A DNA stretch of 64,000 nt, from assembly GCF_000522985.1 (NCBI RefSeq), contig NZ_CP007128.1, positions 2,650,220 through 2,714,219 on the forward strand. Direction: 5' to 3'. Source of the stretch: Gemmatirosa kalamazoonensis (GTDB lineage: Bacteria; Gemmatimonadota; Gemmatimonadetes; Gemmatimonadales; Gemmatimonadaceae). Shown in pieces: positions 4,140-32,696 of the stretch. Numbering within the stretch: position 1 is the stretch's first letter; each line of letters opens with the position of its first letter. Position numbers and translations under genes: made by a program. The notes below the pieces were generated by a model, which worked only from the letters and a program-made list of their open reading frames with translations, was not told the origin of the DNA and made no database searches.

Positions 4140-4476
4140 CTACTCGCCGGCCCGATGTCGCATCCGCGCCAGCGCCCACGCCGCGTGCTCGCGCACGAGC
4201 GGCTCCTCGTCGTCGAGCGCGCGCGTGAGCACGCCGACGTCGTCGGCGGTGCCGACGTTGCCTAACACCACGGCCGCGTTGCGCTTCAGGCCCCGCAGCT
4301 TCGCGCGCTTCATCGGCGAGCCCTTGAACGCGGCGCTGAATTCCGCCTGCGTCATGCCTAACAATGCACGAGCGAGCGTCCTCGCGTCCTTGCCCGCGAG
4401 CGCCTCGCGCGGCGCGTACGGCGAATCGTTAGGCAGCTCCTTGGAGAACCGCACGTTCCACGGACACACGTCCTGG
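4140..4476 (-). pseudogene. orphan queG 3' fragment, copy 2
   Basis: This is a second isolated queG 3' end, close to copy 1 at 513 in both DNA and protein, and again starting exactly at the core (CGGACACACGTCCTGG, 4461-4476). It encodes V-C-P-W-N through the HEAT-like repeat and ends R-H-R-A-G-E, where the intact protein continues another ~35 residues. It has no catalytic part. The host-type octamer CGTTAGGC is at 4427-4434. I infer that this end was supplied by the first insert and then displaced by the second, larger one. The reverse strand is also open for 140 codons through the junction, which matters for the recombinase-tail idea. Confidence 0.85.
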
Positions 4477-4551
4477 GACGTCTGGCGGTATAACTGTTTT
4501 GAGGTCCCGCTCGGGACGGGAGCGCGAACCCTCAGGCGCACAACGACTTAG
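4461..4551. other. left attachment junction 2 (attL-like) with recombinase tail
   Basis: The core CGGACACACGTCCTGG is followed by 24 codons and TAG on the plus strand (4477-4551). That frame is exactly the one used by the serine recombinase when it enters the matching core at 31715-31729. The tail contains P-L-G-T-G-A-R-T-L-R, matching the tail at 841-915. Differences between the two tails within the conserved 13-codon block are mostly synonymous third-base changes. I interpret it as the element side of attP, separated from the recombinase gene by integration. Confidence 0.6.
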
Positions 4552-17456: not shown

Positions 17457-17458
17457 CC

Positions 17459-18415
17459 GTGGCCCTAAATGCCCACGGAGGGCTGACCGGGGAGGAGCCG
17501 CCGACCAACGCGCGCGTGCGGCGCGCGCTCAACCTGCTCAAGCCGGTCCTGGATGCGTTCATCCGGCAGAAGCTCGCTGGGGTCCCGGGCGCGCGGGTAC
17601 CGCGCGACGCGGACCTTCAAGGGCTGCTGCGGGCGATGCTCGACAACCGGGGGACGTTCTTCTCGGGCCGCTCCGGCGAGGCGCTGAAGCACAACGTGAA
17701 CCTGCTCCGGGGCGCCCGGAACTGGAACGCTCACGACGTGGTGCTCGACGAGCGCGAGGCGCGCCAGGTCATCGAGACGGTAGCCATCGTCGCGGAGCGG
17801 ATCGGCGCTCCTCACGAGGTGATCGCTGCCACCGACGCGCTGAACGCGCCGCCGCAAGCGTTGAGCGTTCCACCGGCTGCACCCTCCGGAGCGCGCGTCC
17901 CGCCCCCCAGCCCGCCCCCGGGGACGGCCGCGGCAGGGGCGGGTGGGTCCTCCGACCGGCGCCCACCGAGGGTGCAGCCGCGCCGCGACGCGGCGGGCGT
18001 GATCGTCAACGCCGACGAGCTGACGGCCGACGAGGTGGCCCTGCAGCGCGTCCTCTGCCCGGGCTGCCGTGAGAAGGTGTTCGAGGAGTGGTCGGCAGGG
18101 TGGGACGCGCACGCGGCGCACCGCTGTGCAGGAATGACGGCCGACACCACGGAGGAGCGGAAGAGCGAGTTCCGCCGCCGGTTCGGCCACCTGTTCCGAG
18201 CACCCGCGCGCGGCGAGAGCCAGCGTGCGGTGATGCGCCACATCTGGGAGCGCTGCTGCCCCGACGACGAGCGCGCGATCCGCGAGTACGCCGATGCCGA
18301 GCAGCGCGGCGAGGTTCGCCGGACGAACAACGCCTCCGGGCTCCTGCCAGAGGGGTACGCCCGTGCGCTGCTCGCCGACGGACTGCGGAAGGGATGGCTA
18401 CGTCCGTGCGGCTGA
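17459..18415 (+). CDS. HEPN (Swt1-like) domain protein with C-terminal zinc-binding region
   Basis: The protein has 318 residues from a GTG two bases after the Mrr stop. Residues ~20-110 form a Swt1-type HEPN helical domain with the R-N-x-x-x-H element (R87-N-W-N-A-H92), the RNase signature of HEPN proteins. A Pro-rich linker (~130-165) follows. The C-terminal part has C-P-G-C...H-x-x-H-R-C, likely zinc-binding, and a helical tail. It is cotranscribed with the type I genes. Inference: a toxic RNase or regulatory partner that acts when restriction fails, comparable to other nucleases nested in type I loci. A structural role is also possible. Confidence 0.65.
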   Translation: MALNAHGGLTGEEPPTNARVRRALNLLKPVLDAFIRQKLAGVPGARVPRDADLQGLLRAMLDNRGTFFSGRSGEALKHNVNLLRGARNWNAHDVVLDEREARQVIETVAIVAERIGAPHEVIAATDALNAPPQALSVPPAAPSGARVPPPSPPPGTAAAGAGGSSDRRPPRVQPRRDAAGVIVNADELTADEVALQRVLCPGCREKVFEEWSAGWDAHAAHRCAGMTADTTEERKSEFRRRFGHLFRAPARGESQRAVMRHIWERCCPDDERAIREYADAEQRGEVRRTNNASGLLPEGYARALLADGLRKGWLRPCG

Positions 18416-18435
18416 CGCCCAGAAGATCCGACAGC

Positions 18436-20022
18436 ATGGCCGCCGCCCCGGCCGTGCCCCTGCCGCAAGCGTGCCCGGCGTCCCGGCCGGCCGCGCCCCC
18501 CCATCGCGATCAACCCGCCGCGCCCGTGACGTCCGACCGCATCGTTGCCAAGCTCTGGAACTACTGCACCGTCCTCCGCGACGACGGGCTGTCGTACGGC
18601 GACTACGTCGAGCAGCTCACCTATCTGCTGTTCCTGAAGATGGCCCACGAGCGCACGCAGGCGCCGTGGTCGCAGCCGTCCGTCATCCCGGCCGGCTACG
18701 ACTGGCCCGCGCTCAAGGCGAAGGAGGGTGACGCGCTCGAGGTCCAGTACCGCCACACACTGGAGGCGCTGGGCCGGCAGCCGGGCATGCTCGGCCTGAT
18801 CTTCCGCAAGGCGCAGAACAAGGTGCAGGACCCGGCCAAGCTGCGCCGCCTCATCGCGGATCTCATCGACCGCGAGCAGTGGCTCGCGCTCGACGCCGAC
18901 GTGAAGGGCGACGCGTACGAGGGGCTGCTCGAGAAGAACGCGCAGGACACCAAGGGCGGGGCGGGGCAGTACTTCACCCCGCGCCCGCTCATCCGCGCCA
19001 TCGTCGACTGCGTGGCCCCGCGCCCGGGCGAGACCGTGGCCGACCCCGCGTGCGGGACCGGCGGGTTCTTGCTCGCCGCGCACGACTACGTCGTCCGCCA
19101 CCACCCGTCGCTCGACCGCGCGCAGAAGCGCCACCTCAAGCTCGAGGCGCTGCACGGCACCGAGCTGGTGGACGGTGTCGCCCGGCTGTGCGCGATGAAC
19201 CTGCTCCTGCACGGCATCGGCCCCACGGCCGGGGACACCGCCGCGCCGGCCGTGCGCGTCGACGACGCCCTTCGCGCCGACCCGGGTCAGCGATTCGAGG
19301 TCATCCTCACCAACCCGCCGTTCGGTCGGAAGTCCAGCGTGCGCGTCGTGAACGCGGAGGGCGAGGAGGAGCGACAGGACCTCACGGTCGTCCGCGACGA
19401 CTTCTGGGTGTCGACGAGCAACAAACAGCTCGCGTTCGTGCAGCACGTGAAGACGCTGCTCAAGATCGGCGGCCGGGCCGCGGTCGTCGTGCCGGACAAC
19501 GTGCTGTTCGAGGGCGGGGCGGGAGAGACGGTGCGCCGCAAGCTGCTCCACGAGTGCGATGTGCACACGCTGCTGCGGCTCCCGACGGGCATCTTCTACG
19601 CGCAGGGCGTGAAGGCGAACGTGCTGTTCTTCGACCGCCGCGCCGCGAGCGATCAGCCGCAGACGCGGAAGCTCTGGGTGTACGACCTGCGCACGAACAG
19701 GCACTTCACCCTCAAGACGAACCCGCTGCAGCGCGCGGACCTCGACGAGTTCGTGGCCTGCTACCGGCCCGAGAACAGATACGACCGCACGGCGACGTGG
19801 CACGAATCGGACGCGCCCGAGGGACGCTGGCGCGCGTACGACTACGCGGAGCTCGTCGCGCGTGACAAGGCGAGCCTCGACGTGTTCTGGCTTCGCGACG
19901 AGGCACTCGAGGCGTCCGCGAACCTGCCGGCGCCCGACGTGATCGCGGCCGAGATCGTCGAGGACCTGCGCGCCGCCCTGGCTACGTTCGAGGAGCTACA
20001 GGGCGCGCTGGCGGAGCGCTGA
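18436..20022 (+). CDS. hsdM: type I restriction enzyme, methyltransferase subunit
   Basis: The protein has 528 residues from ATG 18436, 20 bp after the HEPN gene. It has an N-terminal HsdM helical bundle (L-W-N-Y-C-T-V-L-R-D-D-G-L-S-Y-G-D-Y), then G-Q-Y-F-T-P-R-P-L. The AdoMet motif I is D-P-A-C-G-T-G-G-F (about 203-211) and the catalytic N-P-P-F is at about 293, so it is an N6-adenine methyltransferase. The C-terminus has a coiled tail for HsdS contact. The first ~35 residues (A/P-rich) are atypical; a start near 18529 is possible. A weak 6-bp hairpin (20114-20131) lies beyond the stop. Confidence 0.92.
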   Translation: MAAAPAVPLPQACPASRPAAPPHRDQPAAPVTSDRIVAKLWNYCTVLRDDGLSYGDYVEQLTYLLFLKMAHERTQAPWSQPSVIPAGYDWPALKAKEGDALEVQYRHTLEALGRQPGMLGLIFRKAQNKVQDPAKLRRLIADLIDREQWLALDADVKGDAYEGLLEKNAQDTKGGAGQYFTPRPLIRAIVDCVAPRPGETVADPACGTGGFLLAAHDYVVRHHPSLDRAQKRHLKLEALHGTELVDGVARLCAMNLLLHGIGPTAGDTAAPAVRVDDALRADPGQRFEVILTNPPFGRKSSVRVVNAEGEEERQDLTVVRDDFWVSTSNKQLAFVQHVKTLLKIGGRAAVVVPDNVLFEGGAGETVRRKLLHECDVHTLLRLPTGIFYAQGVKANVLFFDRRAASDQPQTRKLWVYDLRTNRHFTLKTNPLQRADLDEFVACYRPENRYDRTATWHESDAPEGRWRAYDYAELVARDKASLDVFWLRDEALEASANLPAPDVIAAEIVEDLRAALATFEELQGALAER

Positions 20023-20223
20023 TGAGCCGCCTGTGGGTGGCCACTGTGCCCATGCCCGAGGACCTCGTGTAGGACATAACGGGAGTGCGTGGCGTGCTGC
20101 GCTAGGGATCCGACCCGGAGGCTGCTCCGGGCGCGACAGCCGTGATCGGGAACAGCGCGCCGACGGGGGCGGGTGTCACGGCCGAAGGGACGCGCTGAAG
20201 GCTACGGGGCAGATGGTCGACGA

Positions 20224-20253
20224 AATTCCGGGCGTGGAAAGCGGGCGGGTACG
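20224..20253 (+). promoter_or_regulatory. element promoter-like signature, weak copy
   Basis: The downstream box GGGTACG-GTGG lies 16 bp after AATTCCG, a degraded version of the TTTTCGG-N16-GGGTAGG signature seen at four other genes of this module. It is 45 bp before the ATG of the gene at 20299, a spacing like that at 21155. Confidence 0.35.
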
Positions 20254-20298
20254 GTGGGCTCACGGCAGTCACCACCCACCCACATCCCGCTCGCAGAG

Positions 20299-20979
20299 AT
20301 GCCTACCACCTCGCTCCCCCAGGCTCTGGCTCAGACGCGCCCGCTCCCGGAGATCGGGATCCGCGCGATGCTCGCCGCCGTGCACACGCGCCTCGACGCG
20401 CTCGCTCGGCACTCGTTGCCTCTGTTGCGCGCCGAGCGCGCGTTGCTGGTCGCGCTGTGGTACTCGGAAGCCGACGATGCCGCGTTCCTGCACGTCGAGG
20501 ACGGACGTGCGATCCCGTGCGACCCGACCGGCGCCGATCGCCTCGCGTCGGTCCTCGCCCGCGAGGATGCGCTCGTGCGCGAGGTGGCCGCGCTGCGCGA
20601 ACTCGAGACCGCGCTCGAGACCTACGAGGCGGGCGGACGCCTCACGCTCGCGCTGATCGAGGGCATCGACGATCCGGCCGGGGATGCCGGTGACGTGCAT
20701 CGGGTGCCGTGCCCGGGCGGACTCGCCCACCCTGCCACCGCGCTCGGGCGCGACCAGACCCACCGGCTCGCCGCCTACCTCGCGGCGATCGACGAGGACG
20801 TCGCCCGCGCCACGGCGAGCGGACGGACGCACGACGTCGCGTCCTACAGCGTCGAGCGGTGCGTCGTGAGCGACCGGCTCCAGCGACGCCTCACCGTGGC
20901 CGCCGCTGGGGACCGTCAGATGACGGGCCGGCCTCGCGCGCCGCGCCCGCGCGCTCCGCGGATCGCGAAGAGCGCGTAG
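20299..20979 (+). CDS. hypothetical protein of the element core module
   Basis: The protein has 226 residues and no recognised family. It is mostly helical, with a possible coiled-coil segment (about 75-115: A-R-E-D-A-L-V-R-E-V-A-A-L-R-E-L-E-T), and ends in a basic Pro/Arg-rich tail (R-P-R-A-P-R-P-R-A-P-R) that could bind nucleic acid. The ATG at 20299 was preferred over an upstream GTG because the promoter-like signature lies just before it. It shares that promoter type with the AAA+ and nuclease genes, so I place it in the same regulon. Confidence 0.55.
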   Translation: MPTTSLPQALAQTRPLPEIGIRAMLAAVHTRLDALARHSLPLLRAERALLVALWYSEADDAAFLHVEDGRAIPCDPTGADRLASVLAREDALVREVAALRELETALETYEAGGRLTLALIEGIDDPAGDAGDVHRVPCPGGLAHPATALGRDQTHRLAAYLAAIDEDVARATASGRTHDVASYSVERCVVSDRLQRRLTVAAAGDRQMTGRPRAPRPRAPRIAKSA

Positions 20980-21071
20980 CGCCGGTTCCGCGCACCGGGG
21001 GCGCTGCCCCGTGCTCTCGGTGCCGCCGACGCTTCGGGACCCACCCGCAGGAGCGCACTGGCGGGACACGT

Positions 21072-21101
21072 TTTTCGGCGCGGCCGGGAGGTGCGGGTAG
21101 G
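21072..21101 (+). promoter_or_regulatory. element promoter-like signature
   Basis: TTTTCGG (21072-21078), a 16-bp spacer and GGGTAGG-CTG (21095-21104) stand 53 bp before the ATG at 21155. Boxes and spacing are the same as at 22334 and 27938. An AGGAG-type ribosome site lies between it and the gene. Confidence 0.6.
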
Positions 21102-21154
21102 CTGACGCCGATCGCCGAGCGACTACCCAGGACACGTCACAGGAGACGATCGAC

Positions 21155-22279
21155 ATGACGAAGATGATCCGCGCGCTCACCACCCTCGACGGCCGCGTAG
21201 TCCGGGTCCCCGGTACGAAGGGATGGACCGCCGCCGCTCGCCGCGCGGTCTGCGAGGCGGAGGTCACCCGCGTCGTCGGCGCACCCGTGCGGTTCGCGCC
21301 GGCCGGGCTCGCCCACGCGGGCAGCATCAAGACGGTGGACGGCCGGCCCGACGTGGTCGCCCGCATCATGGGCGGCCTCGTGGATCGCGAACACCGCGTC
21401 TCGCTGCACGTCACGCGCGCGCACCACGAGTGGCTCGTGCGGCACCTGGCGGACGGCGGGCGCGCGTTCCAGGTCGCGGTCGCCGCCGTCGGCCCGCGGC
21501 AGCGCGGCCGCCCGACGCTCGCGCTGGTGTCGTTCGACTACGCGCTGATCGCCGCGGCCGTGACCCGCGCGTTCGGCGAGCGCGCGATCCGGCGCCTGAA
21601 CCTCACGCTCGCAGCGCGCTGGGAGGACATGGGTCTCATGCTGCGGGTCCCGGAGCTGGGCATCGCGCTCGGGCACGGCGTGGGGGAGCTCGCGCGCGTG
21701 CTCGCGCACGCGCCCGGCCTGGACCCCTCGGCGCTGCTGACCACCGAGGAGCGCGTCGCGGTCGTGGCGGCGGTGCTGGAGCTCAGATACGGCCTCCGCG
21801 CGTCGGCCCCGCCGCTCGAGGCGCGCACCAAGGTCGCGCACCCGTGCATGCACGCGGTGGGGCTGCCCGACGTGCCGGCCCACCGGCTCGTCGGCCGCGT
21901 GGCGCCCTGCGCCCGGCCGCACATCGCGACCCTCGAGCGCGCGGACCTGATCGGCGCCCCACAGACGGCGCACCTGTTCGCGCGGCCGGAGCAGGAGCTC
22001 ACGATCGTCGAGGTCGAGCACCGTACCCACGACGGCGTCGACAAGCTGCGGGACCGCTTCCACGCGGCCGAGGCGCTCGGGCTGCAGGTGCGCGCCGGCC
22101 TCCTGGTCGTCCGTGACGGGCACGAGGACCGGTTTCGCGAGCGGCTGGCGCGCTCCACGGCCGTCGTGCGCAGCCGGACCCGCATCGAGCCGATCTCCCG
22201 GTGGTACGCGGAGTACTGCGTGCTCCGCGACGCCCACGTCGCCGCCCAGCGCGCCCTCGTGCGGCGCGCCGCGGCCTGA
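21155..22279 (+). CDS. hypothetical protein, possible nuclease-like C-terminal domain
   Basis: The protein has 374 residues. I do not recognise a family. Residues ~265-330 (L-T-I-V-E-V-E-H-R-T-H-D-G-V-D-K-L-R-D-R-F) have an acidic strand-helix pattern a little like PD-(D/E)XK or related folds, but no full motif. The middle is rich in Ala/Val helices, with no membrane segment. The start is supported by CAGGAGA about 10 bases upstream and by the promoter-like boxes. It lies in the core module just before the AAA+ gene, which suggests joint action. Confidence 0.55.
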   Translation: MTKMIRALTTLDGRVVRVPGTKGWTAAARRAVCEAEVTRVVGAPVRFAPAGLAHAGSIKTVDGRPDVVARIMGGLVDREHRVSLHVTRAHHEWLVRHLADGGRAFQVAVAAVGPRQRGRPTLALVSFDYALIAAAVTRAFGERAIRRLNLTLAARWEDMGLMLRVPELGIALGHGVGELARVLAHAPGLDPSALLTTEERVAVVAAVLELRYGLRASAPPLEARTKVAHPCMHAVGLPDVPAHRLVGRVAPCARPHIATLERADLIGAPQTAHLFARPEQELTIVEVEHRTHDGVDKLRDRFHAAEALGLQVRAGLLVVRDGHEDRFRERLARSTAVVRSRTRIEPISRWYAEYCVLRDAHVAAQRALVRRAAA

Positions 22280-22333
22280 GCCGCCTGTGGTGCGCGCCGG
22301 TTGCCCGAGGGTGTGGCGGCCGGCGCGCGGCGA

Positions 22334-22363
22334 TTTTCGGTCCAGGCGAGCGGCGCGGGTAGG
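22334..22363 (+). promoter_or_regulatory. element promoter-like signature giving a leaderless start
   Basis: TTTTCGG (22334-22340), a 16-bp spacer and GGGTAGG-GTG (22357-22366). The ATG of the AAA+ gene is at 22372, only about 6 bp after the downstream box. If this is a promoter, the mRNA begins at or next to the ATG and is leaderless; no ribosome site is present. A 9-bp inverted repeat (22292-22300 with 22320-22328) just upstream may terminate the previous gene. Confidence 0.6.
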
Positions 22364-22371
22364 GTGCTGGC

Positions 22372-23940
22372 ATGACCACTCCATCCGAGAACCCCGGCGC
22401 CTCGTCGCCGCCCGACGGCGGCCAGGTGCAGCTGGATCTCTTCCCACCCGCGCCGGCCGGCACTCCCGCCAGGCCTACGGGCATCAGCCGCGCGGTCGCG
22501 CGGGCCTCCGTCAGCCCCGGGTGGTGGCCCCTCGTCGAGCTGCTCTACAACGTGTGGGCGAGCGACGGTCTCGTGGTGCATGTCTGCCACGAGGCGGACG
22601 GCACGCTCGCGCTCGAGGCGGAGTTGCCCGACGGCGCTGAGACCGTCGCCCCGCTGCTCCAGCGCATCCGCGCGCGGGCTGCTCGCACGTGCGGCTGCTG
22701 CGGCGTCGAGCGCGGGGCGCCGTATCGGCGAAACGTCGCCGGCCCGACGCGTGTGGCGTGCGGCCCGTGCCGCGAGCGGCTCGGGGCCGGCGAGGCGTAC
22801 CTCGTCATCGCCGACGAGTACTGGCGGCTCGACGGGTCGCGCCGCGTGCCGCCCCTGGTGAGCGCCGCCGCCACCGGGCGCTCCCACAACGCCCCACTCC
22901 CGCCCGCCCCGCTCGCGTCCTCCCCGCTGCGCCCGTGCACCACGCTGCCGCCGGAAGCGCTCCGCGCCACGATCGCGGAGATCCGGGCGGCGATGCTCGC
23001 GGAGATCGTCGGGCAAGACAAGGCCGTGGCGCGCCTCGCGCTGCTTGCCGGGCTCCACGTCGGTGGCGGTCTGTCGAGCGGCGGCCGGGCCCTCGTCCTC
23101 GGCCCTTCGGGGGTGGGGAAGACCGCGACCATCGACGCACTCCGGCACGCGCTCGAGGTAGGAGGTTGGGACGTGCCGGTCGTCGTGGTCGACGCGCTCG
23201 AGCTGACGTCCCCGGGATGGAGTGGCGCGCCGTCGATCGGGGACCTGATCAGCGCCGCCATCGCCGGCGCTGCACCCGACTCGCCGCGGGCGCGGCGCGC
23301 CGTGATCGTCATCGACGAGATCCACCACGCTGGCGTCCGCCCGGACGTGCACGGCAACATGGCCGCCAAGCGCCAAGAGGTGCTGGCATCGCTGCTCGGG
23401 CTCGTCGGGCACGGGAGCGTGCAGCTCGGCGACACCGGCGGCGCGTGGTCGAGCCGGGAGGCGCTCGTGATCGCGATGGGTGCGTTCACAGGCTTGTTGG
23501 ACCTGCGGGGCGCGCCGAGCATCCAGGCGCTGGTGCACGCGGGGCTCCCGCTCGAGCTGGCGACGAGGTTCGAGGAGGTCGTCCTCCTGCGCCGGTTGCC
23601 CGAGCGCGAGCTTCGCGCGGTGCTCCGTCGCTGGCCGGCGCTCGGGAGCCTCACGGACGTGTGCGAGCGACTCGGCTACACGGTGCGCATCCACGCGGAG
23701 GCGTACGCCCGGGCGGCGCGGGCCGTGGTGCTCGGGCAGGACGATGCGACGGCCCGCACGGCCGGCGGCTGGCTCGTGGCGGCGCTGCGGGAGGTGCTGA
23801 TCGCCGCCCTCGCGGCGCCCGACCATCGCGAGCTCGTGGTCGCGCCGGACTCACTGCCGATTCCCGCCTCGGCGGCGCGCCACCGGCCTCCGGACGATCC
23901 GCCGGATTCTCCGGGCGGCTGGGCGCGACGATCATCCTGA
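22372..23940 (+). CDS. ClpX-like AAA+ ATPase with N-terminal clamp-binding motif
   Basis: The protein has 522 residues. Near the N-terminus is Q-L-D-L-F (20-24), matching the consensus bacterial beta-clamp-binding pentapeptide. A C4 zinc-binding region follows (C107-x2-C110 and C130-x2-C133). The AAA+ module follows with I-V-G-Q, Walker A G-P-S-G-V-G-K-T (244-251) and Walker B V-I-V-I-D-E (311-316), as in ClpX-type unfoldases. It lacks a clear ClpP-binding loop. Clamp motif plus AAA+ recalls Hda, but with an extra zinc domain. Inference: it acts at the replisome or on clamp-bound DNA, for element replication or for defence. It is probably translated from a leaderless message. Confidence 0.75.
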   Translation: MTTPSENPGASSPPDGGQVQLDLFPPAPAGTPARPTGISRAVARASVSPGWWPLVELLYNVWASDGLVVHVCHEADGTLALEAELPDGAETVAPLLQRIRARAARTCGCCGVERGAPYRRNVAGPTRVACGPCRERLGAGEAYLVIADEYWRLDGSRRVPPLVSAAATGRSHNAPLPPAPLASSPLRPCTTLPPEALRATIAEIRAAMLAEIVGQDKAVARLALLAGLHVGGGLSSGGRALVLGPSGVGKTATIDALRHALEVGGWDVPVVVVDALELTSPGWSGAPSIGDLISAAIAGAAPDSPRARRAVIVIDEIHHAGVRPDVHGNMAAKRQEVLASLLGLVGHGSVQLGDTGGAWSSREALVIAMGAFTGLLDLRGAPSIQALVHAGLPLELATRFEEVVLLRRLPERELRAVLRRWPALGSLTDVCERLGYTVRIHAEAYARAARAVVLGQDDATARTAGGWLVAALREVLIAALAAPDHRELVVAPDSLPIPASAARHRPPDDPPDSPGGWARRSS

Positions 23941-24033
23941 CGCCGCGCTCATGTTCCGGCCCCCGGGGACGGTGCAGCGAGACATCGCGGTGTTCGCGAG
24001 CACGCGCCCTGGCGCCACGGAGGTAGCTCAACA

Positions 24034-24069
24034 CGGCGCGGGTGGGCCCGAGAAGGCCCACCCGCGCCG
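24034..24069. terminator. bidirectional terminator hairpin
   Basis: A perfect 15-bp stem (24034-24048 with 24055-24069) with a 6-base loop CGAGAA lies between the end of the AAA+ gene on the plus strand and the end of the minus-strand excisionase-like gene. No T run follows on either side. The surrounding 23941-24205 holds nothing else that I can support. Confidence 0.55.
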
Positions 24070-24205
24070 TGCCGATGGTGCACTGTCCCCGAACTGTCCC
24101 GGCGCGCGGCGTGTCGCGCCTACCGGTTCGGCCCAGCTGCACTCACCCGTCGGCGATGCAGTGCTCGCAGGCGGTGCGGCCGGCCGACCAACGGCGGTCG
24201 CAGCG

Positions 24206-24469
24206 TCAACACGACTCCGGCCGTGCCACGCTGCGCGCCCAGGCGTAGGAGCCGAGATGCCGCGATCGGCCCATGCTGCCCCCGGCCTGTAGCTCGCGGA
24301 TGTAGGCCTCCGCGGCGGCGCGGTCGAAGTGCAGCCTACCCATCACGTCGAAGCCGGCGTCGAGCCGCTCGCGCGTGCCCGGCACGGCTAGCAGCGCGTA
24401 GAGCTTCGTCTTGCCGATGCGCAGGGCGGAGCGGAACTCGGCGGCGTACATGCGGGGCTGGAACGTCAT
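24206..24469 (-). CDS. excisionase-like small DNA-binding protein
   Basis: The protein has 87 residues from the ATG at 24469. The central part, A-A-E-F-R-S-A-L-R-I-G-K-T-K-L-Y-A-L-L, reads as a MerR/AlpA-type helix-turn-helix. It is followed by G-R-L-H-F-D-R-A-A-A-E-A-Y-I, the typical wing and last helix of excisionase-like proteins. It lies directly downstream of the tyrosine-recombinase-like gene on the same strand, the usual place for a directionality factor. It could assist that protein or the serine recombinase, or regulate transcription. Confidence 0.6.
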   Translation of the reverse strand: MTFQPRMYAAEFRSALRIGKTKLYALLAVPGTRERLDAGFDVMGRLHFDRAAAEAYIRELQAGGSMGRSRHLGSYAWARSVARPESC

Positions 24470-24558
24470 GGGTCCTAAGGCGAAGGGAGGGGCGGGCCGG
24501 CGTCTCCGACCCGCGTCATCCTCACCGAGCACCCACCCGCACACCCCCGTCTACCCCC

Positions 24559-26931
24559 TCACGCCGCTCGCCGGCGTCGCCGCCGTTCGGCTGCCGTCGG
24601 CCCTGTCTCCAGCTGGGGGAGCGCCGCGTCGGGGCGATCGGGATCGAAGGCGTCCCAGAAGGCGTCCCAGTCGTCCCCGTCACGCAGCTCGAGCATCCGA
24701 GCGATGACGCTGTTGAACCACCGCGGATTCTCGGGTCCGCGTCGGTGCATGCGCTCGTTCATGGCCGCGCTGATGTGGACGTAGTGCTTGCGCAGCGTGG
24801 CCTCGGAGTCGTTGGTACGCACACACGCCGTCGTCCAGTCGCCGAGCACGCCCCCGAAGTAGTTGCCGACGAGGAGCCGCACGTAGTGCGCGGAGAAGAT
24901 GGCGCGGTACTCCTCCGTGAGGGCCGGGTCGTCGTAGTCCGGCACGTTCATACGGAGCACGTCGCGAACGATCGCGTGGAGTGACCGGCCGAAGATCTCC
25001 GAGAGGGAGTCGGTCGACATGTGGCCGCGCCAGCCCGCCGCCGTGCGCTGTCGCTCGCTCGGACGCGGCGTCACCCAGACCGCGTAGCCGTCGTCAGCCG
25101 GGTCGAAGGCCTGCACGTCGGGGAGAACGCCCGCCCGTACCAGGGCCCGTGCCCGCCCCTCGGTCCAGAACACGTGGAAGAGCCGGTGGTCGACGATCCC
25201 GGGGGAGAGCCGCCGCTCCCGCTCGTTCGGCGTGGTGCCGCGTGTGTCCACCTTGAGGCTCACCTCGTGCTCGTCGAGGCCGGAGAACCGCGTCCGGATC
25301 TCGCTGACGCCCACCCACCGGCCACGCGCGTCGCGGATGGGCGTGACGACGACGTGCTCACCCGCGATGGCGCCGGAGTAGTTCTTGACGCGCAGGGAGT
25401 CGTCCGCGAGTACCGCGGTCGTGACGTAGTCGCGTACGGCGTTGTGGAAGTCGTCCACGAGCTTCTGGCTCTCTCGCGACTCGAGGTGACCGAGGCGCGC
25501 GCGCCGCTCTTGCACCTGCGCCTCGAGGTGCAGAGCGCGACGGCGCAGATATGGAAGGCCCAGGCAGACCAGCTGCGGCCACGTCAACACCAGCTTGCCC
25601 TTCGCCTTCCGGCCGACGAGGTGGCGCGGCTTGTTGTACGTCTCCATGTGCCCGGTGAGCTCCTCGTACGCGACACGCGCCGGTACCCACTTCTCGGGCG
25701 ACTTCTGGAGGAGCGTCGTCCCGAAGAACCGGTGCGCGATCATGAACGCGATCTCCACCTGCTGCATCAGCTTCTCGGTGTAGACGGGGACCTCGTCGTC
25801 CTCGTGCGCGGGGTTCTTGAGCGTAAGGGGAGAGTGCTCGTAGCTCCGTCGCGCGGAGATGTCGGCCAGCCGGCGCATGAGCGGCTGCATCTCGACCGGC
25901 GCTGCCGACTCGCCAAGGAGCTCGGCCAGCTGGTCGTCCCGCTCGGTCGTCGTGCCGGTGATCTGCACGGCGACCCGGTGTGTCCACAGCGCGTACCACG
26001 TGAGCGTCGGGAGCGCGATCTCCCGCGCCTGTCCGTGGCTCTCCTGCAGACGGATGAGCGAGGCCACGATCCAGCTGGCCGTGTCGGCGAGGCTGCGCTC
26101 CCATGCGGGGCTCAGGCCGGCGTGTCGGCCCGCGTTGGTCACCTCCTCCACGGCGGCGCCGAGCTTCGGGGCGAGCGCCTTCACCATGTCGAGTGGCGTG
26201 AGGTCGAGCGGGTTCGTCGCGACTCCCGCCCGGCGGAGGAGCTCGGGGTGGTCCGGCAGGCCGCGGATGCCCTGCCCGCGGGGCGTGACCACCTCGTAGC
26301 AGCGCGGCAGGTCGGCCGCGCCCAGGAGGTCGGCGGCCTTCCGGTAGGCACCGAGCTCGTAGTGGACCCGCGATCGGCTGCGACCGACGCGAGCGCCCAT
26401 CGCCATGACGGCGTCGAAGTCGTCGGGGATGACCGTCGGGTCGGCCACGCCATTGGCCAGGAGCAGGTCCTGGAAGCGGAGCAGGGCGGCGGGGTAGTTC
26501 CGACGCAGGCCGGTCGCCTCGGCGTCGCGAACGAGCGCCTCGTAGAGCGGCTCGAACGGCGGCAGCACGCGCGACGGATCCGCCGGCTTGCGCTCGGTGA
26601 CGGCGTCGCGGCCGGTCACCACGCTGACGAAGAGGCGGACGTTGCTGCGCTCCTTGCCGGGGTCCGACCGCTCGACGGCGCCGAGGTACGCCACGTCCGG
26701 CAGCGACGCGAAGAGCGGCGCCATCTCCGTCGCCTCGAGCTCGGCGTCGGACAGGCAGCGGTCACCGTGCATCGGGATGAGCGCGTGCCGCACGGCGGCG
26801 CGCACGTTGGAGAGGATCGGGTCGCGACGGCTCTTCGGGAACCGGCCGGCGCGACCGGTCTTGCGGTTGACGATCTCGCCGGCGTCGGCCTTGGCGAGGA
26901 AGGTGGCGATGCTCTCGGCGAGGGTTGGCAT
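24559..26931 (-). CDS. large tyrosine-recombinase-like protein
   Basis: The protein has 790 residues, much larger than normal phage integrases. Near the C-terminus H682-Y-V-R685 matches the H-x-x-R box of tyrosine recombinases. R-K-H-Y717-V-H follows 32 residues later, the right distance for the nucleophilic tyrosine. The first catalytic Arg is not obvious. The N-terminal two thirds are helical and could include a SAM-like DNA-binding domain. An alternative is a non-catalytic derivative used in replication or regulation. It is transcribed opposite to the other core genes and followed by a small HTH gene. The start follows a purine-rich leader. Confidence 0.55.
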   Translation of the reverse strand: MPTLAESIATFLAKADAGEIVNRKTGRAGRFPKSRRDPILSNVRAAVRHALIPMHGDRCLSDAELEATEMAPLFASLPDVAYLGAVERSDPGKERSNVRLFVSVVTGRDAVTERKPADPSRVLPPFEPLYEALVRDAEATGLRRNYPAALLRFQDLLLANGVADPTVIPDDFDAVMAMGARVGRSRSRVHYELGAYRKAADLLGAADLPRCYEVVTPRGQGIRGLPDHPELLRRAGVATNPLDLTPLDMVKALAPKLGAAVEEVTNAGRHAGLSPAWERSLADTASWIVASLIRLQESHGQAREIALPTLTWYALWTHRVAVQITGTTTERDDQLAELLGESAAPVEMQPLMRRLADISARRSYEHSPLTLKNPAHEDDEVPVYTEKLMQQVEIAFMIAHRFFGTTLLQKSPEKWVPARVAYEELTGHMETYNKPRHLVGRKAKGKLVLTWPQLVCLGLPYLRRRALHLEAQVQERRARLGHLESRESQKLVDDFHNAVRDYVTTAVLADDSLRVKNYSGAIAGEHVVVTPIRDARGRWVGVSEIRTRFSGLDEHEVSLKVDTRGTTPNERERRLSPGIVDHRLFHVFWTEGRARALVRAGVLPDVQAFDPADDGYAVWVTPRPSERQRTAAGWRGHMSTDSLSEIFGRSLHAIVRDVLRMNVPDYDDPALTEEYRAIFSAHYVRLLVGNYFGGVLGDWTTACVRTNDSEATLRKHYVHISAAMNERMHRRGPENPRWFNSVIARMLELRDGDDWDAFWDAFDPDRPDAALPQLETGPTAAERRRRRRAA

Positions 26932-27500
26932 CTTACGATGGGAGGGAGGTGGAGGGGGAGGTCGCGGAGTCGTGCGGGCGCTCGTGGCTTGCGATCGCGA
27001 GGCAGTGCGGGACGGTTCGCGGCGGTTCGCAGGGGCGTAAGTCCAACACTTTCCCGTCCGTTGCGTCGGCCTTTCCGAACACAGTCCCGAGCCGCGGGCC
27101 AGGGAATCCGCCTCGGCCGCGGGTGTCGCCGTTCATCTCGGTTCGCGACAACGTCTTAGGCGAGCGTGGCCGGCCCGCCCGCCGCGACCACGAGGAGCGA
27201 GCGATCGTAAGGCCCGGAGCGCCGCTACGGTGATACGACCACCGTGCGCTCACGTCCGGGCAGCCATCAACGGCCCGGGGCGGGCCGGGGAGCGGACGAC
27301 ACCGGCCGGCTCACGGACGGTGGCGCTCGACGCTCCGATCGTGAGCGGTGTGGGGCTTCCCGCGGCGCCGAGACCCTTCCCGATGCGTCACACCGCGACG
27401 CGTGTGGGATTCGGAGCTCCGGGGGCGCGCGGGTAGGTGAGGTCTGCGGCGACCGGCGCTCGGTCGAACGCGAGAACTCACTCTTTCCCGAGGCATCGCG
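26932..27500. promoter_or_regulatory. divergent control region with element promoter signature
   Basis: This 569-bp gene-free stretch lies between the minus-strand recombinase-like gene and the plus-strand small gene at 27501. At 27408-27437 it holds GATTCGG, a 16-bp spacer and GGGTAGG-TGA, one of the shared signatures, 63 bp before the ATG. The left part has a tandem repeat of CGGTTCGC near 27013-27030. It could hold the recombination site of the tyrosine-recombinase-like protein; that is only positional. No convincing gene is visible. Confidence 0.45.
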
Positions 27501-27887
27501 ATGCGCACCGATCCCCGTCAGCTCGACCTCTTCGAGACCACCTCGCCGCTGCCCGCACACAGCCTGGTCTCCTGCGGCGGCGCGAGCGGGCGCGCGACGC
27601 ACCAGCCGCCGTGGGCGCGGTCGGCTACGACGCCGCGAGTCGGCACCGGGATGTACGTGACGATCCCGGGCGGGTGGGACGAGCCGCCGAACGCGGAGTG
27701 CGTCGCCTGTGGGCGGATGGGTGGTGGCCACGCGCAGGGCTGCCTGGTCGCGGACCACGAGCAACGCGAACGCGCGTGCTGGGAGGACGCCCAGCTGGAA
27801 GCTGGCGATCCGGCGTTGTGGGCCGACATGATCGCCGCCACGACGGACGCGGTGCAGTGCGCGCAGCTACCGATGCCGTCCGCGTGA
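27501..27887 (+). CDS. small protein with N-terminal clamp-binding motif and Cys pair
   Basis: The protein has 128 residues. It begins M-R-T-D-P-R-Q-L-D-L-F, so the beta-clamp pentapeptide Q-L-D-L-F sits at residues 7-11, as in the AAA+ protein of this module. A later C-V-A-C-G-R-M-G-G-G-H-A-Q-G-C (about 67-81) looks like a small zinc-binding site. The C-terminal third is acidic and helical. No family is recognised. It shares the promoter type of the module and precedes the Fe-S nuclease gene. Inference: it competes for, or is recruited by, the sliding clamp. Confidence 0.6.
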   Translation: MRTDPRQLDLFETTSPLPAHSLVSCGGASGRATHQPPWARSATTPRVGTGMYVTIPGGWDEPPNAECVACGRMGGGHAQGCLVADHEQRERACWEDAQLEAGDPALWADMIAATTDAVQCAQLPMPSA

Positions 27888-27937
27888 GAGACGCCGCGTT
27901 CCCTGGCTGACATGGGAACGCTCGAGACAGCCGACGG

Positions 27938-27967
27938 TTTTCGGACGAGCCGGATGACGAGGGTAGG
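27938..27967 (+). promoter_or_regulatory. element promoter-like signature
   Basis: TTTTCGG (27938-27944), a 16-bp spacer and GGGTAGG-GTG (27961-27970) stand 47 bp before the GTG of the nuclease gene. A GGAGG ribosome site at 28005-28009 lies between them. Identical in both boxes to the copy at 22334. Confidence 0.6.
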
Positions 27968-28014
27968 GTGGGCCCGTTCACCGAGTCGCCCCCCCCTCGC
28001 ACCCGGAGGCCCAC

Positions 28015-29259
28015 GTGTCCGCCACCCCGCGACTTCACACCGCCGGCGACCACGAATGCTCGCCTGGAGGCGCACAGGTGTCCGCACCAGCGGCGGCATC
28101 GACAGGTGGTCACTGTGTCGGGCGTGTTGACGACGGCCATGCGCCCAACACGGGAGCTGCGCGCGTCGACCGCTTCGCCACGAGGCTGACGACACGCTCG
28201 GTCACCACCACGACCCACGTCTCGCTGTCGCGGGTTCGGCGGCGCGACCAGTGTGAGCTCGCGGACTGGTGGGCGACCACCGGCGCGCACGGCGGCTGGC
28301 GGCCGGACGCACCGGTCGAGGTGCGGGTCGCTCACGCGTTGAAGGGACTGACCAGCGTGCCCGCTGTGTTGGGCGTGGGGATCCACGACGCGTTCGCGCG
28401 GATCACGCGGGCGCTGCGAGACGGCCGACGACCGCCGGCCTACGAGGAGCTGTACGAGGGCATGCGGGGGCGCCTGAACGCGGCCGCGCGGAACCGGGAC
28501 GTGGGCGGGTGGCTCGCCGATGACCGGCGGGGACCGCTCCTGCGCGAGGTGCTGCTCGGCGAGTGGCCCGAGGGGCGCCCGCCAGTTGCCATCGTCGAGG
28601 CGACACAGGCCCGCGCCGCCGGCCTCCTGCGCCGACTGCTGTCACACCCCGTGCTCGCGGACCTCGCCGCATGCGGCCGCGGCGACATCCTGGCTTGCGA
28701 CAGCCTCGAGGCGACGCTCGTGGAGATGGTGGGCGTGCCGGTCCGCGTCTATGCGGCGCCGGACGTCGCCTACATCAGCCGCGCACGCATCGAGCTGCCC
28801 GACGTCGGCGTCCCGCTCCCGGCCGGCACCGCCGTCATCGCCGACGTCAAGAGTGGCCGGGTCGGCGATCGGATCGAGGCGGCTCGGTCGCAGCTGCAGG
28901 TGTACGCGTGGTACGCCGTGACGCACCTTGGAGTGCGCTACGGGCCGACCGGGTGCATCGCGGCGCGGGTCGTCGACCTGTCCGCCCGGACCCCGGGGGA
29001 GTCGGATGTCTGGTGGGCGTTCGGGCCGGCCGACGTCGAGCAGGGACGGCGAACGCTCGAGCGCTGCGTCGAAGGGATCGCGGCCCAGCAGGACGCCACT
29101 GGCATGATCGACCGGGATCGGGTCAGCCGGACGCCGACCGCCTGCCGCTGGTGCAACTGGTCGGTCATCTGCGCCAACCCGGAACTCGCGCCGCCCGCAT
29201 GGCGCCAGTACCTCGACAGCGCTGGCGCGAGGGAGTCCGGTGACCGCCCAGGCCTTTAG
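28015..29259 (+). CDS. Cas4/AddB-like Fe-S PD-(D/E)XK nuclease
   Basis: The protein has 414 residues. The RecB-family nuclease pattern is visible: H124 in G-V-G-I-H, D250 in A-P-D-V-A-Y-I, D277-V-K279, and a Gln/Tyr helix (S-Q-L-Q-V-Y-A-W-Y). One Cys at the start of the domain (C80, R-R-R-D-Q-C) and three at its end (C377-x2-C380-x5-C386) form the split four-Cys Fe-S arrangement of Cas4 and AddB. It should be a single-strand DNA exonuclease. No CRISPR or helicase gene is near. It is placed with clamp-motif proteins, which points to replication or recombination of the element. The GTG start is backed by GGAGG. Confidence 0.8.
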   Translation: MSATPRLHTAGDHECSPGGAQVSAPAAASTGGHCVGRVDDGHAPNTGAARVDRFATRLTTRSVTTTTHVSLSRVRRRDQCELADWWATTGAHGGWRPDAPVEVRVAHALKGLTSVPAVLGVGIHDAFARITRALRDGRRPPAYEELYEGMRGRLNAAARNRDVGGWLADDRRGPLLREVLLGEWPEGRPPVAIVEATQARAAGLLRRLLSHPVLADLAACGRGDILACDSLEATLVEMVGVPVRVYAAPDVAYISRARIELPDVGVPLPAGTAVIADVKSGRVGDRIEAARSQLQVYAWYAVTHLGVRYGPTGCIAARVVDLSARTPGESDVWWAFGPADVEQGRRTLERCVEGIAAQQDATGMIDRDRVSRTPTACRWCNWSVICANPELAPPAWRQYLDSAGARESGDRPGL

Positions 29260-29355
29260 GGCACTTCTCAAAGGCGATCGGCCCCTCATACCCTGGCCCT
29301 CAGACCTGCCGAGCACATCCGCTCGGAGGCGAAGACACCAGTGGTCGGGTGGGCC

Positions 29356-29583
29356 ATGGCTGCAGCGGCGGGGGGCGGCGACAGCACGCGGGGGGCCGGC
29401 AACGGCGCCCCGGGGCTGTCCCTACCCGAGCACCTGCGGTCCCTGATCAGCCCGGACGTACTCGTGGCGCGCCGTGCCGTCGTACAGGTGCGCGCGACCG
29501 ACCCCCACGATCTCGTGCGCCGCAGGCGCGTGGCGGAGATCGTGGCGAACTCCCTGCTCGAGGATTTCGATGACGCAGCGTGA
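29356..29583 (+). CDS. small protein translationally coupled to the serine recombinase
   Basis: The protein has 75 residues: a Gly/Ala-rich start, then L-P-E-H-L-R-S-L-I-S-P-D-V-L-V-A-R-R-A-V-V-Q-V-R (amphipathic helices) and an acidic end. No family is recognised. Its stop lies 14 bp inside the recombinase gene, so the two are probably cotranslated. It may be a cofactor or directionality factor of the recombinase, or just a leader for coupling. A GTG at 29341 is an alternative start. Confidence 0.45.
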   Translation: MAAAAGGGDSTRGAGNGAPGLSLPEHLRSLISPDVLVARRAVVQVRATDPHDLVRRRRVAEIVANSLLEDFDDAA

Positions 29584-31747
29584 CTTCCGTTCCTGGCGCG
29601 AGCGACTCGTCGCGTGGGTCGCCCGCGTGGGCGCCGTTGCCGGGACCATCCCGAGCCGCATCCGCTACTCGCGTAAGAGCACCGAGTCGCAGGATCGGCA
29701 GGTGCACTCGCACGACCAGCAGTCGGCGGAGGCGGACAAGAAGTGGGGCGCGATCGACCGTGAGTTCGTCTGGGCGGACGACCGCTCCGGCACCACGTTC
29801 GACCGCCCCGAATTTCAGGACATGCTCGCGTTCTGCCTGGCCAACCCGCGGAAGAAGAGTGATCCCGGGCGCGTGGAGATCTACGACCCGAGCCGGTTCG
29901 GCCGCATCCTCGACTCGGAGGGGGCCCCCGACATCATGGCGTTCCTCGCCGTGTACTCGCAGTTCGAGAGCGCGGGCTGGCAGCTGCACTTCGTGACGGT
30001 CCAGCGCACCGGCGATGGCCTCGTGGACGCGGTGACCATGGCGTTGTACGCGTACGCGGCCGCCCTCTACTCGGTCAACCTCTCGAAGAACGCTCGTCGC
30101 GGCCGCGTGAAGCACGCCGCGGACGGGTGGTGGACCGCCGGCACCGCGCCCTGGGGGACGCTCCGCAAGGACACGAGCACGAACCGCATCCTGAAGCCCG
30201 GGCAGCGTTCGGCCGCTGGTGGAGGGGGCGTCATCCTGGTCGGGGACCAGCCGGTCCTGAAGCTCTGGCGGAAGTCGGCGCTGCGCATCCTGGGCGGCGC
30301 GTCGCTCGACAAGGTGGGCGCGGAGCTGTACGAGAAGGGCGTCCGAGGGCCGAAGGGTGGGAAGCTGGGCCACAGCTCCATCCGCAATCTCCTCACGAAC
30401 CGCGCCCTGATCGGGCAGGTGGAGTACCACGACCAACCGGACGACGAGGGCAACCGCGCGCGGCGCCGCGTGAAGGCCAAGTGGGAGTCACTGGTCGACG
30501 TCGAGCTCTTCGAGAAGGTGTCGGAGCGGCTCAAGCGCGAGCCGGCTGAAGACGGTGGCGAGCGGCGCCAGCGTCGTCGGCGCGATCTGTTCCCCATTCG
30601 ACCTGTGTGCGCGCACTGCGGCGTCGACTACAACGGGGGGCGCCTCGGCGCGGGCCAGGGGAGCGCCCGCGTGTACGCGCACGCGCAGCCGAAGGCGCGC
30701 GCGAACGAGACTGCCTACCAGCGCCGCAAGGAGGCGGGCTGCAAGGTCTGGAACGTGGACGCGCTCGAGCTGGAGGAGAAGATCAAGGACCTGATCGTCT
30801 CGGAGCGCACGAGCGTGGAGTTCCAGGACGACGTGCGTGCGCTGCTGCTGGAGCGCGACGAGTTCCGGAAGAGCGCTGCCGACGCGGTAACCGCGGCGCG
30901 CGCCTCGCTCGAGCAGCTCACCGCGAAGCAGAAGGACCTCGCCCGCGCCGTGGCGAAGCTCGCGGGCCAAGAGGGCTTCGACGACAACCCGCTCCTCGGA
31001 GAGCTCGACGTCGTCCGGCGGCGGATCCAGTCCGCGCGCGAGGAGCTGGCGCGCGCCGAGCGTTTCGCGCAGTCGCGCGAGAACGCGTGGGAGCGCCTCT
31101 GCGGGATCATCCACGAGACGCGGAACATCGCCGCGGCCTGGGCGAAGAGCGGCCCCGAGGAGCGGAAGATCCTGCTCGACTACTGGGTGTACGACGTGCT
31201 GATCGTGGTGGAGCCGATCCCGGGGAAAAAGCGCGCGAACCGGAAGACCGCGGTCGTCACGCTGCGCACGGCGCCCAACGCGCCGAAGCACTTCGCGCTC
31301 GGGGGCGGTCAGCCCCCGAGCGCCGCCAGCGCGGACCGCAGCTCCCCGGCCACCCCGGGGTCGTCCTCGGACGAGAGCCGCTCGCGCAGCGGCTGCAGCG
31401 CGGCCGGGGAGCCGATCCTCCCCAACGCCCATGCCGCGTGCCCCCGGACCAGCGGCTCGTCGTCCGCGAGCACCGCGACGAGCGCCGGGATGTCGTCCGG
31501 CGCCCCCACGTTCCCCAGCACCACCGACGCGTTGCGCCGGAGCCCCCGCAGCTTCGCGCGCTTCATGGGCGAGCCCTTGAACGAGGCCGAGAACTCCGCC
31601 TGCGACATGGACAGCAGCGAGAGCGCGAGCGACCGCGCGTCCTTGCCCGCGAGCGCCGCCCTCGGCGCGTACGGCGAGTCCTCGAACAGCTCGATTGAGA
31701 ACTTACGGTTATACGGACACACGTCCTGGCACACGTCGCACCCGTAG
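29570..31747 (+). CDS. large serine recombinase of the element
   Basis: The N-terminal resolvase domain has Y-S-R-K-S with catalytic Ser37, and F-G-R. It is followed by the recombinase domain, a zinc ribbon (C-A-H-C-G near 347, another Cys near 389) and a coiled coil (about 410-510), as in large serine integrases. The family-typical part ends near 31300. The frame then continues 143 codons antisense to queG through the attachment core and stops at TAG 31745-31747, giving 725 residues. In the excised circle the frame would enter the 24-codon tail at 4477-4551 (744 residues). The start (M-T-Q-R-D-F) overlaps the upstream small gene. It inserts and excises the element at queG. Confidence 0.88.
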   Translation: MTQRDFRSWRERLVAWVARVGAVAGTIPSRIRYSRKSTESQDRQVHSHDQQSAEADKKWGAIDREFVWADDRSGTTFDRPEFQDMLAFCLANPRKKSDPGRVEIYDPSRFGRILDSEGAPDIMAFLAVYSQFESAGWQLHFVTVQRTGDGLVDAVTMALYAYAAALYSVNLSKNARRGRVKHAADGWWTAGTAPWGTLRKDTSTNRILKPGQRSAAGGGGVILVGDQPVLKLWRKSALRILGGASLDKVGAELYEKGVRGPKGGKLGHSSIRNLLTNRALIGQVEYHDQPDDEGNRARRRVKAKWESLVDVELFEKVSERLKREPAEDGGERRQRRRRDLFPIRPVCAHCGVDYNGGRLGAGQGSARVYAHAQPKARANETAYQRRKEAGCKVWNVDALELEEKIKDLIVSERTSVEFQDDVRALLLERDEFRKSAADAVTAARASLEQLTAKQKDLARAVAKLAGQEGFDDNPLLGELDVVRRRIQSAREELARAERFAQSRENAWERLCGIIHETRNIAAAWAKSGPEERKILLDYWVYDVLIVVEPIPGKKRANRKTAVVTLRTAPNAPKHFALGGGQPPSAASADRSSPATPGSSSDESRSRSGCSAAGEPILPNAHAACPRTSGSSSASTATSAGMSSGAPTFPSTTDALRRSPRSFARFMGEPLNEAENSACDMDSSESASDRASLPASAALGAYGESSNSSIENLRLYGHTSWHTSHP

Positions 31748-32451
31748 ATCCGATCCCCCACGCCGTCGCGCAGCGCCTCCGGGATCCCCCCCCGCGCCTC
31801 GATGGTGAGGTACGACACGCACCGCGTCGCGTCGAGCGTCCGCGGCGCCACGAACGCGCCCGTCGGACACGCGTCCAGGCACCGCGTGCACGTCCCGCAG
31901 CGGTCCGCCTCGAACGGCGCGTCCGGCTCCAGCTCGAGGTCGAGCAGCAGCGCGCCGAGGAAGAAGAAGGAGCCGAGCGTCGGGTTCACGAGCATGGTGC
32001 TCTTGCCGAACCAGCCGAGCCCCGCGCGGCGCGCGAGGTCGCGCTCGAGGATCGGTCCCGTGTCGACGTACGCCTTGCCCGCGACGTCGCGTCCGACGCG
32101 CTCGCGCACCCCGTCGTGCAGCGCGCGCAGCCGCTCCGCCATCACGTCGTGGTAGTCGACGCCGCGCGCGTAACGAGCCACCGGCCCCGCCGGCTCGCGG
32201 CCGCCGTAGCTCATCGCCACGACCACGGCGCTCAGCACCCCCGCCACCGGCCGGCGGAAGTCGCGCCGCTTCTCGGCCCCGCGCTCGAGCCACGGCGTCA
32301 TCTCCCCGGCGTACCCCTCGGCGAGCCACGCGTCGAACGCGGCGGCGGTTTCCGCCGGCCCGAGCCGCGCGATGCCGACGAGGTCGAAGCCGAGCCCGTA
32401 GGCCTGTGCCTTGACGAGGGATTCGAGCGAGGGAAGGGCCGCCGTGATCAT
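31309..32451 (-). CDS. queG: epoxyqueuosine reductase (chimeric, 3' end element-derived)
   Basis: The protein has 380 residues. It reduces epoxyqueuosine to queuosine in tRNA, using cobalamin and two 4Fe-4S clusters. Visible are D130-T-G-P with the catalytic Asp, C185-x2-C188-x2-C191-x3-C195, C211, C238-x2-C241-x3-C245, and a C-terminal HEAT-like domain. The start is ATG 32451, overlapping the upstream gene (ATGA). The recombination core lies over codons ~240-246, so residues from about 242 on are encoded by element DNA. This 3' end lacks the CGTTAGGC octamer present in both displaced copies, and its HEAT region is ~35 residues longer. The last 439 bp overlap the recombinase gene on the other strand. 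Confidence 0.92.
   Translation of the reverse strand: MITAALPSLESLVKAQAYGLGFDLVGIARLGPAETAAAFDAWLAEGYAGEMTPWLERGAEKRRDFRRPVAGVLSAVVVAMSYGGREPAGPVARYARGVDYHDVMAERLRALHDGVRERVGRDVAGKAYVDTGPILERDLARRAGLGWFGKSTMLVNPTLGSFFFLGALLLDLELEPDAPFEADRCGTCTRCLDACPTGAFVAPRTLDATRCVSYLTIEARGGIPEALRDGVGDRIYGCDVCQDVCPYNRKFSIELFEDSPYAPRAALAGKDARSLALSLLSMSQAEFSASFKGSPMKRAKLRGLRRNASVVLGNVGAPDDIPALVAVLADDEPLVRGHAAWALGRIGSPAALQPLRERLSSEDDPGVAGELRSALAALGG
31715..31747. other. right attachment junction (attR-like)
   Basis: The core GGACACACGTCCTGG (31715-31729) is the reverse of the queG codons for Q-D-V-C-P in the Fe-S motif. Left of it the sequence aligns with both stranded queG ends; right of it only the intact queG continues. 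Just beyond, TAG (31745) ends the recombinase frame in the integrated state. Confidence 0.65.
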
Positions 32452-32696
32452 CTTTGTCGTCCGATCCACCGCGCGTACCGGATCACGTCCTCGGCCGGCG
32501 GCACGGCCTCCTCGTCGCCGTAGGCCGTGTACATGCGCCACCGCACGTACTCGGACGGCGGCAGCGGCAGGAACGGCAGCCGACGCCACCAGTCGCGCGC
32601 CCGGAACCGCCACGCGACCCGCAGGAGGTCGGCAGCGAGGCCGGGGCGCACGGCGGCGCGCGGCGCGAGGGCGAGCACGAGACGGAACCAGCGCAT
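32448..32696 (-). CDS. conserved-looking small protein upstream of queG
   Basis: The protein has 82 residues. It is basic and aromatic, with W-R-F-R-A-R-D-W-W-R-R and P-P-S-E-Y-V-R-W-R-M-Y-T-A-Y-G. No domain is recognised. The stop overlaps the queG ATG (ATGA), so the two genes are translationally coupled and probably form an operon. It has no signal peptide or clear membrane helix. It reads as a short factor of unknown function in the native chromosome. Confidence 0.6.
   Translation of the reverse strand: MRWFRLVLALAPRAAVRPGLAADLLRVAWRFRARDWWRRLPFLPLPPSEYVRWRMYTAYGDEEAVPPAEDVIRYARWIGRQR

Follow-up and report, generated by a model that had tools for sequence, protein, structure and literature searches.

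The closest described counterparts of the protein analysed here are ClpX, Hda and the mobile-element proteins that recruit the host sliding clamp. The zinc domain of ClpX holds or recognises substrates or adaptors, its IGF loop serves for docking on ClpP, and, of its known tasks, acting on the Mu transposase comes closest to the one proposed below. TnsE, a protein of the mobile element Tn7, recruits the host clamp. Clamp-binding tags are already known in polymerases, repair proteins, transposases and Hda. The bacterial clamp-binding consensus is given as QL[S/D]LF in an excerpt of PMC9690074, and QLxLF is described as the clamp-binding motif in part of PMC4549789, where it serves mobile-element transposases to recruit the host clamp. 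The clamp peptide of Hda reads QLSLPL in an excerpt of PMC3836487. A review joining the clamp-binding motif, ClpX and the sliding clamp also exists; in the literature searched, no paper links "clamp-binding motif" with "serine recombinase".

The window, which here means the whole analysed stretch of 64,000 nucleotides from Gemmatirosa kalamazoonensis, encodes a ClpX-like AAA+ protein of 522 aa (22372..23940, plus strand), recognised by its translation, Pfam and PDB matches by sequence and fold. It shares with ClpX the core type, the Walker motifs, the arginine finger, the sensor-2 arginine and the aromatic pore-1 loop, as well as a zinc domain N-terminal to the core; in ClpX, this domain was seen at the start of the same-family protein at locus L099. 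Unlike ClpX, it has only 25% identity to the L099 protein in the aligned core, lacks the IGF loop, possesses a different and larger zinc domain, carries a putative clamp tag in its tail and is island-borne; a distinct ClpX-like match lies elsewhere in the host genome (G000:C2:4469480). As in Hda, the tag lies in the N-terminal region before the AAA+ domain, whereas the ClpX-type core with a pore loop and the additional zinc domain distinguish the protein from Hda. In contrast to the clamp-binding transposases and TnsE, which it resembles as a mobile-element protein with a Q-L-x-L-F motif, the tag is N-terminal and belongs to an AAA+ motor and not to a transposase. If confirmed, an unfolding motor that carries its own clamp tag would couple ATP-driven disassembly to the advancing fork; it would also add a further means by which integrative elements could let the host fork set the timing of their excision or replication.

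Occurrence and placement of the QLDLF motif

The first-pass annotation had reported an N-terminal QLDLF pentapeptide in two proteins, and translation confirmed it at residues 20-24 of the AAA+ protein (22429..22443, plus strand) and at residues 7-11 (27519..27533, plus strand) of a small Cys-containing orphan protein of 128 aa, translated from 27501..27887 on the plus strand. The assignment to the sliding-clamp consensus also holds, the peptide being canonical according to the excerpts of PMC9690074 and PMC4549789.

The DNA pattern CARYTNNNNYTNTTY, which encodes Q-[LF]-x-[LF]-F, was scanned across the four-contig genome of 7.48 Mb. As a result, 48 matches were detected, and the reversed-pattern control also gave 48, indicating that genome-wide enrichment is absent. 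According to a simple codon-usage gene finder, 41 of the 48 matches are in frame within a predicted gene. Only two of these 41, those of the AAA+ protein and the small protein, fall within the first 30 residues, while six fall within the last 30; it is placement, not number, that sets the two QLDLF motifs apart. Exact QLDLF accounts for four of the 48 matches, two of them located 5.1 kb apart in the window and the others at the C-terminus of a radical-SAM-like protein and inside a threonyl-tRNA synthetase-like ORF. QLSLF occurs once in the genome, near the C-terminus of a DNA-polymerase/exonuclease-like protein (these three names were assigned by sequence reading). With the amino acid frequencies of the window, 0.00055 N-terminal QL[SD]LF motifs are expected in the 20 element genes, and the probability of at least two is 1.5e-7, an optimistic value because the sites were taken as independent and the window was picked by a reader.

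Both N-termini had also been described as disordered. The consensus peptide does lie in a flexible region in the AAA+ protein, where residues 1-43 have pLDDT below 50 in an AlphaFold2 model that is itself poor (three sequences, mean pLDDT 54); for the small protein, the structure model is uninformative (mean pLDDT 35), and disorder is supported for the AAA+ tail only.

The suggestion that both tags belong to one co-regulated module was rejected, since the tagged genes are separated by two genes on the minus strand (24206-26931). In addition, TAGGGT, a candidate leaderless-type -10-like hexamer (22360..22365, plus strand), ends 6 nt before the ATG of the AAA+ gene, and the small gene is without one. 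TAGACT occurs at the same spacing before the AAA+ gene of the G025 genome, and such a hexamer is found at 5-8 nt in 4 of the 52 distinct window genes tested. The promoter and terminator scan revealed nothing above chance, and Rfam gave no match in 20000-32700.

Searches of 395 genomes and of phages, plasmids and viral contigs yielded no convincing homolog of the small protein, nor was there any match in the G025 genome, which keeps the AAA+ gene. At E up to 0.01, the search listed 30 of the 395 genomes, its own included; three matches were examined, and the others were short and weak. The three candidates (G081, G104 and G073), which overlap a CstA-like gene (so named by eye) in a different frame or strand, were discarded. 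Four antibody chains in the PDB (E 0.14-0.65) were taken as chance matches, and no PADLOC model matches the protein. This orphan status, together with a modest coding score (13.9), would fit a reading in which the AAA+ tag is real but the small protein carries QLDLF by chance, or its ORF is not a gene. We regard this as rather unlikely, though deserving some weight, because the small protein has the exact consensus at residues 7-11, this match and that of the AAA+ protein are the only N-terminal ones in the genome, and its ORF shows a neighbour-like GC content by codon position (0.71/0.61/0.88).

In another reading, the small protein blocks the clamp, as SocB or RipA do, and the docked AAA+ protein strips it off, the pair acting as a toxin and antidote or as a replication brake. 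The identical tags imply the same pocket, and clamp-blocking toxins exist, as stated in excerpts of PMC9690074 and PMC12795458. Such a pair is nevertheless improbable: a shared transcription unit is absent, the G025 genome has retained the AAA+ gene with no match to its supposed partner, and the homolog searches described above were negative. In the preferred reading, set out below, the island would encode in the small protein a second ligand of the clamp, either a competitor or a partner.

Core, zinc domain and conservation of the AAA+ protein

In Pfam, the protein matches AAA (E 1.6e-7) and AAA_2 (E 4.3e-6). Its best PDB sequence match is ClpX (E 4e-5), and ClpX is also the top Foldseek match of the model (E 1.7e-7). 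Alignment of the model with ClpX in VIA-align gave Z 9.9 and rmsd 3.7 over 158 residues, a result to be read in the light of the facts that middling Z values are common and that the N-terminal domain is barely covered. The NCBIfam ClpX equivalog model scores the protein at 29.6 bits versus a cut-off of 359. The only PADLOC match is to mad8 (E 0.0097, over the P-loop), which is not a clear match to a defence model.

The cores of the window protein and its homologs from G025 (entered as its 820-to-2 part alone), G029, G278, G003 and G026 were aligned with the same-family ClpX of L099. A ClpX-type core with an aromatic pore-1 loop was found in the window protein, the loop reading GWSG versus GYVG in ClpX. 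The Walker motifs are present, and R399 is conserved as the arginine finger and R462 as the sensor-2 arginine. The IGF-loop insertion is found in the L099 ClpX and is absent from all six aligned AAA+ homologs, that of the window included. A remodeller, not part of a protease, is therefore the natural reading of this alignment.

The first-pass annotation had drawn a parallel with Hda. The architecture bears this out in having an N-terminal tag before the AAA+ domain, whereas the core is of the ClpX type and probably not of the DnaA/Hda type. Taken further, the parallel would make the protein a clamp-bound regulator that switches an ATP-bound initiator or loader by AAA+ contact, with no unfolding, and so couples the element to replication. 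The G025 genome offers some support, since a 143-aa DciA-like gene (L036 1865-2296; Pfam E 5e-5, 23.9 bits, just under the cut-off of 24) is divergent from its AAA+ gene and a Rep_1 gene is located further along that island. No DciA-like or Rep_1 match was found by Pfam among the eight window proteins scanned, and no DnaA or Hda model or structure is among the matches listed for the AAA+ protein (Pfam, NCBIfam, PDB, Foldseek). With ClpX best by both sequence and fold and an aromatic pore loop in the core, an Hda-like regulator seems unlikely, and a ClpX-type remodeller is the reading followed below.

The zinc domain and the ClpX-like core announced after the tag were both found. The zinc domain (22480..22866, plus strand; approximately residues 37-165) contains C107, C110, C130 and C133. 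Residues 37-165 can be aligned with an independent 148-aa protein encoded at the G029 locus (L038:13391-13837). A weaker alignment is obtained with stand-alone proteins in G115 and on plasmids from Mycobacterium, Mycolicibacterium, Brevibacterium, Curtobacterium and Methylocystis. Seven plasmid records were found using the G029 protein as the query, five of which were read. According to hhalign, the two AAA+ zinc domains alone match this family with E 2.8e-4 (probability 41%) and 5.2e-4 (31%); after addition of the G029 protein, E was 8.7e-13 (98%). The gain makes the family link a fair one, obtained partly via an intermediate, and the AAA+ zinc domain is probably a divergent member of the stand-alone family, which we label "KEKFG-LR" because no named family was found. 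The shared features are GPGW..LV, C-x-E..G.L, TC..CG and C..C; unlike the AAA+ protein, the plasmid proteins are stand-alone and untagged, with no motor fusion. None of the seven stand-alone members that were read has a clamp tag, which indicates that the tag belongs to the fused tail. For the window as well as for G025, the six-frame print shows the AAA+ frame closing only a few codons before the ATG, and the tail is thus real, provided that this ATG is used.

Among 59 relatives searched, two strong AAA+ matches were detected beyond the window, and 4 of 395 genomes of the phylum, its own included, had a match at E up to 1e-20. The close homologs belong to the same family, one of them being on a Gemmatimonadetes MAG contig (L023). 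Within the family, 150 of 179 genomes match at 1e-12, and seven stand above the ClpX-like background: G000, G025, G278, G029, G344 (broken), G003 and G026. Family matches of about 48-57 bits were taken for host ClpX and similar proteins (only L099 was read as ClpX) and were left uncounted. Loci L024-L030 from Acidobacteria and Aminicenantes (7 of 8 loci) contain an unrelated core gene of 976-1009 aa and were dropped.

The G025 homolog (51% identical) has QISLF at the position aligned with QLDLF. The dozen or so residues before the tag are unrelated in the two tails, and PARPTG after the tag is conserved, hence the conservation of the tag is not isolated. The replacements of D by S and of L by I are compatible with the clamp code. 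The remote G278 homolog (about 30% identical) contains QLTLPF at residues 6-11, comparable with the Hda peptide given above. From composition, the chance of tag patterns of the G025 and G278 types in a given 30-residue start is about 6e-5 and 1e-4, respectively. The G029 homolog (389 aa) has neither tail nor zinc domain, and those of G003 (321 aa) and G026 (314 aa) start at the core. The tag is thus present in three of the six readable members, the query included, and the other three are devoid of the whole tagged region, the seventh (G344) being broken. The whole N-terminal domain occurs in two homologs, those of the window and G025; the N-terminus of G278 is tagged and different. Full-length homologs are thus few. 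Conservation of the pentapeptide appears to apply to the AAA+ protein where the tail exists and does not extend to the small protein, for which no homolog was found. In no AAA+ homolog does the N-terminus align with the motif gone.

No relative of the AAA+ protein, the G278 homolog, the zinc protein or the small protein was found in viral contigs, and phages and plasmids contained no relative of the AAA+ protein. The G278 homolog matched 25 phage records through the AAA core alone.

The short ClpX-like proteins of G003 and G026 (L097 and L098; no IGF loop) each adjoin a sigma-factor-like gene, as judged by eye, so that this gene set recurs in the two genomes. At the G278 locus (L037), a TcmP-like protein (10230-11126; named by eye) beside the AAA+ gene ends in SPQLGLFAG, a possible clamp tag, and Mu/TniB-like transposition genes are also present.

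The host clamp and a possible role of the AAA+ protein

By its match to PDB clamps (E 2e-64), the DnaN of the host (L091:1688-2800) is a clamp of the ordinary kind. It keeps GHRLA, the P-x-Y..V-x-P stretch and the C-terminal V-M-P-x-R-L, which we take to form the binding pocket. Binding of the AAA+ protein to the clamp is likely in view of its tag, and binding of the small protein is plausible.

On these grounds, we give an even chance to the AAA+ protein being a clamp-tethered, ClpP-independent remodeller of the ClpX type that belongs to a queG-integrating mobile island. The disordered N-terminal tail would dock on the host DnaN through QLDLF, and the zinc domain, like the unrelated one of ClpX, would probably hold or recognise a substrate or an adaptor. 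To judge from the conserved residues, the hexameric core may pull on or disassemble proteins that are bound to the element or to DNA under replication. Likely substrates would be, in this order, the complex of the island serine recombinase, host proteins bound to the clamp and an element replication protein. A more tentative extension, to which we give less than an even chance, is that the island's own unfoldase rides the host clamp and dismantles complexes, such as the recombinase synapse, replisome parts or clamp ligands, at the passing fork.

The queG island and its recombinase

A large serine recombinase is encoded at 29570..31747 on the plus strand (Pfam Resolvase and Recombinase; phrog_95 integrase, E 3e-37), preceded by an 80-aa ORF (29341..29583, plus strand); both are kept in G025, with 60% and 38% identity, respectively. 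The attachment gene is queG (31309-32613, minus strand; named by eye). Its 3' part is repeated at 4140-4541 and 513-833, and the block common to the copies starts with CCAGGACGTGTG. The start of this block places the right attachment core within queG at approximately 31712..31732, and the common block places the left core at approximately 4460..4479. These repeats delineate a serine-recombinase island of 27 kb (about 4460-31732) in queG and an adjoining segment of 3.6 kb, so that the three 3' ends of queG bound two att-flanked segments next to each other. The 3' end of the recombinase gene runs antisense into queG with an overlap of about 430 bp, so that attP is probably located at the end of the recombinase gene.

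The G025 island has the same layout, with two queG 3' copies, and its AAA+ gene is directly upstream of a 74-aa ORF followed by the recombinase. In G029, the AAA+ gene comes directly after a small serine recombinase, and in G278 the recombinase and the AAA+ gene are 87 kb apart on one contig of 108 kb. The recombinase is found in 9 of 178 family genomes, with the AAA+ gene nearby in two of the nine; the contigs of G231, G008 and G277 end too soon to show it. No AAA+ gene was detected in the 15 kb at the recombinase of G344. The queG island of G030 contains the same restriction cargo (HsdR 91%, HsdM 94%) without the AAA+ gene. An obligatory role of the AAA+ gene in queG islands was rejected, since other such islands are without it; given its presence near two of nine recombinases, it is a recurrent accessory of recombinase-bearing elements and not a required partner.

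The restriction genes of the window are of type I (12242-20022), with an Mrr-like nuclease and a Swt1-like HEPN protein encoded between HsdS and HsdM. The 790-aa minus-strand protein encoded at 24559-26931 has no family match, and its end resembles, by eye, a degenerate tyrosine recombinase; a relative (28%) is present in the G003 island. In addition, a protein kinase-like gene (PADLOC models mad6 and PD-T4-6) adjoins the gene of a 1325-aa TPR-GreAB-C-PIN protein at 6268-11969, and the two possibly constitute a defence pair on the same island.
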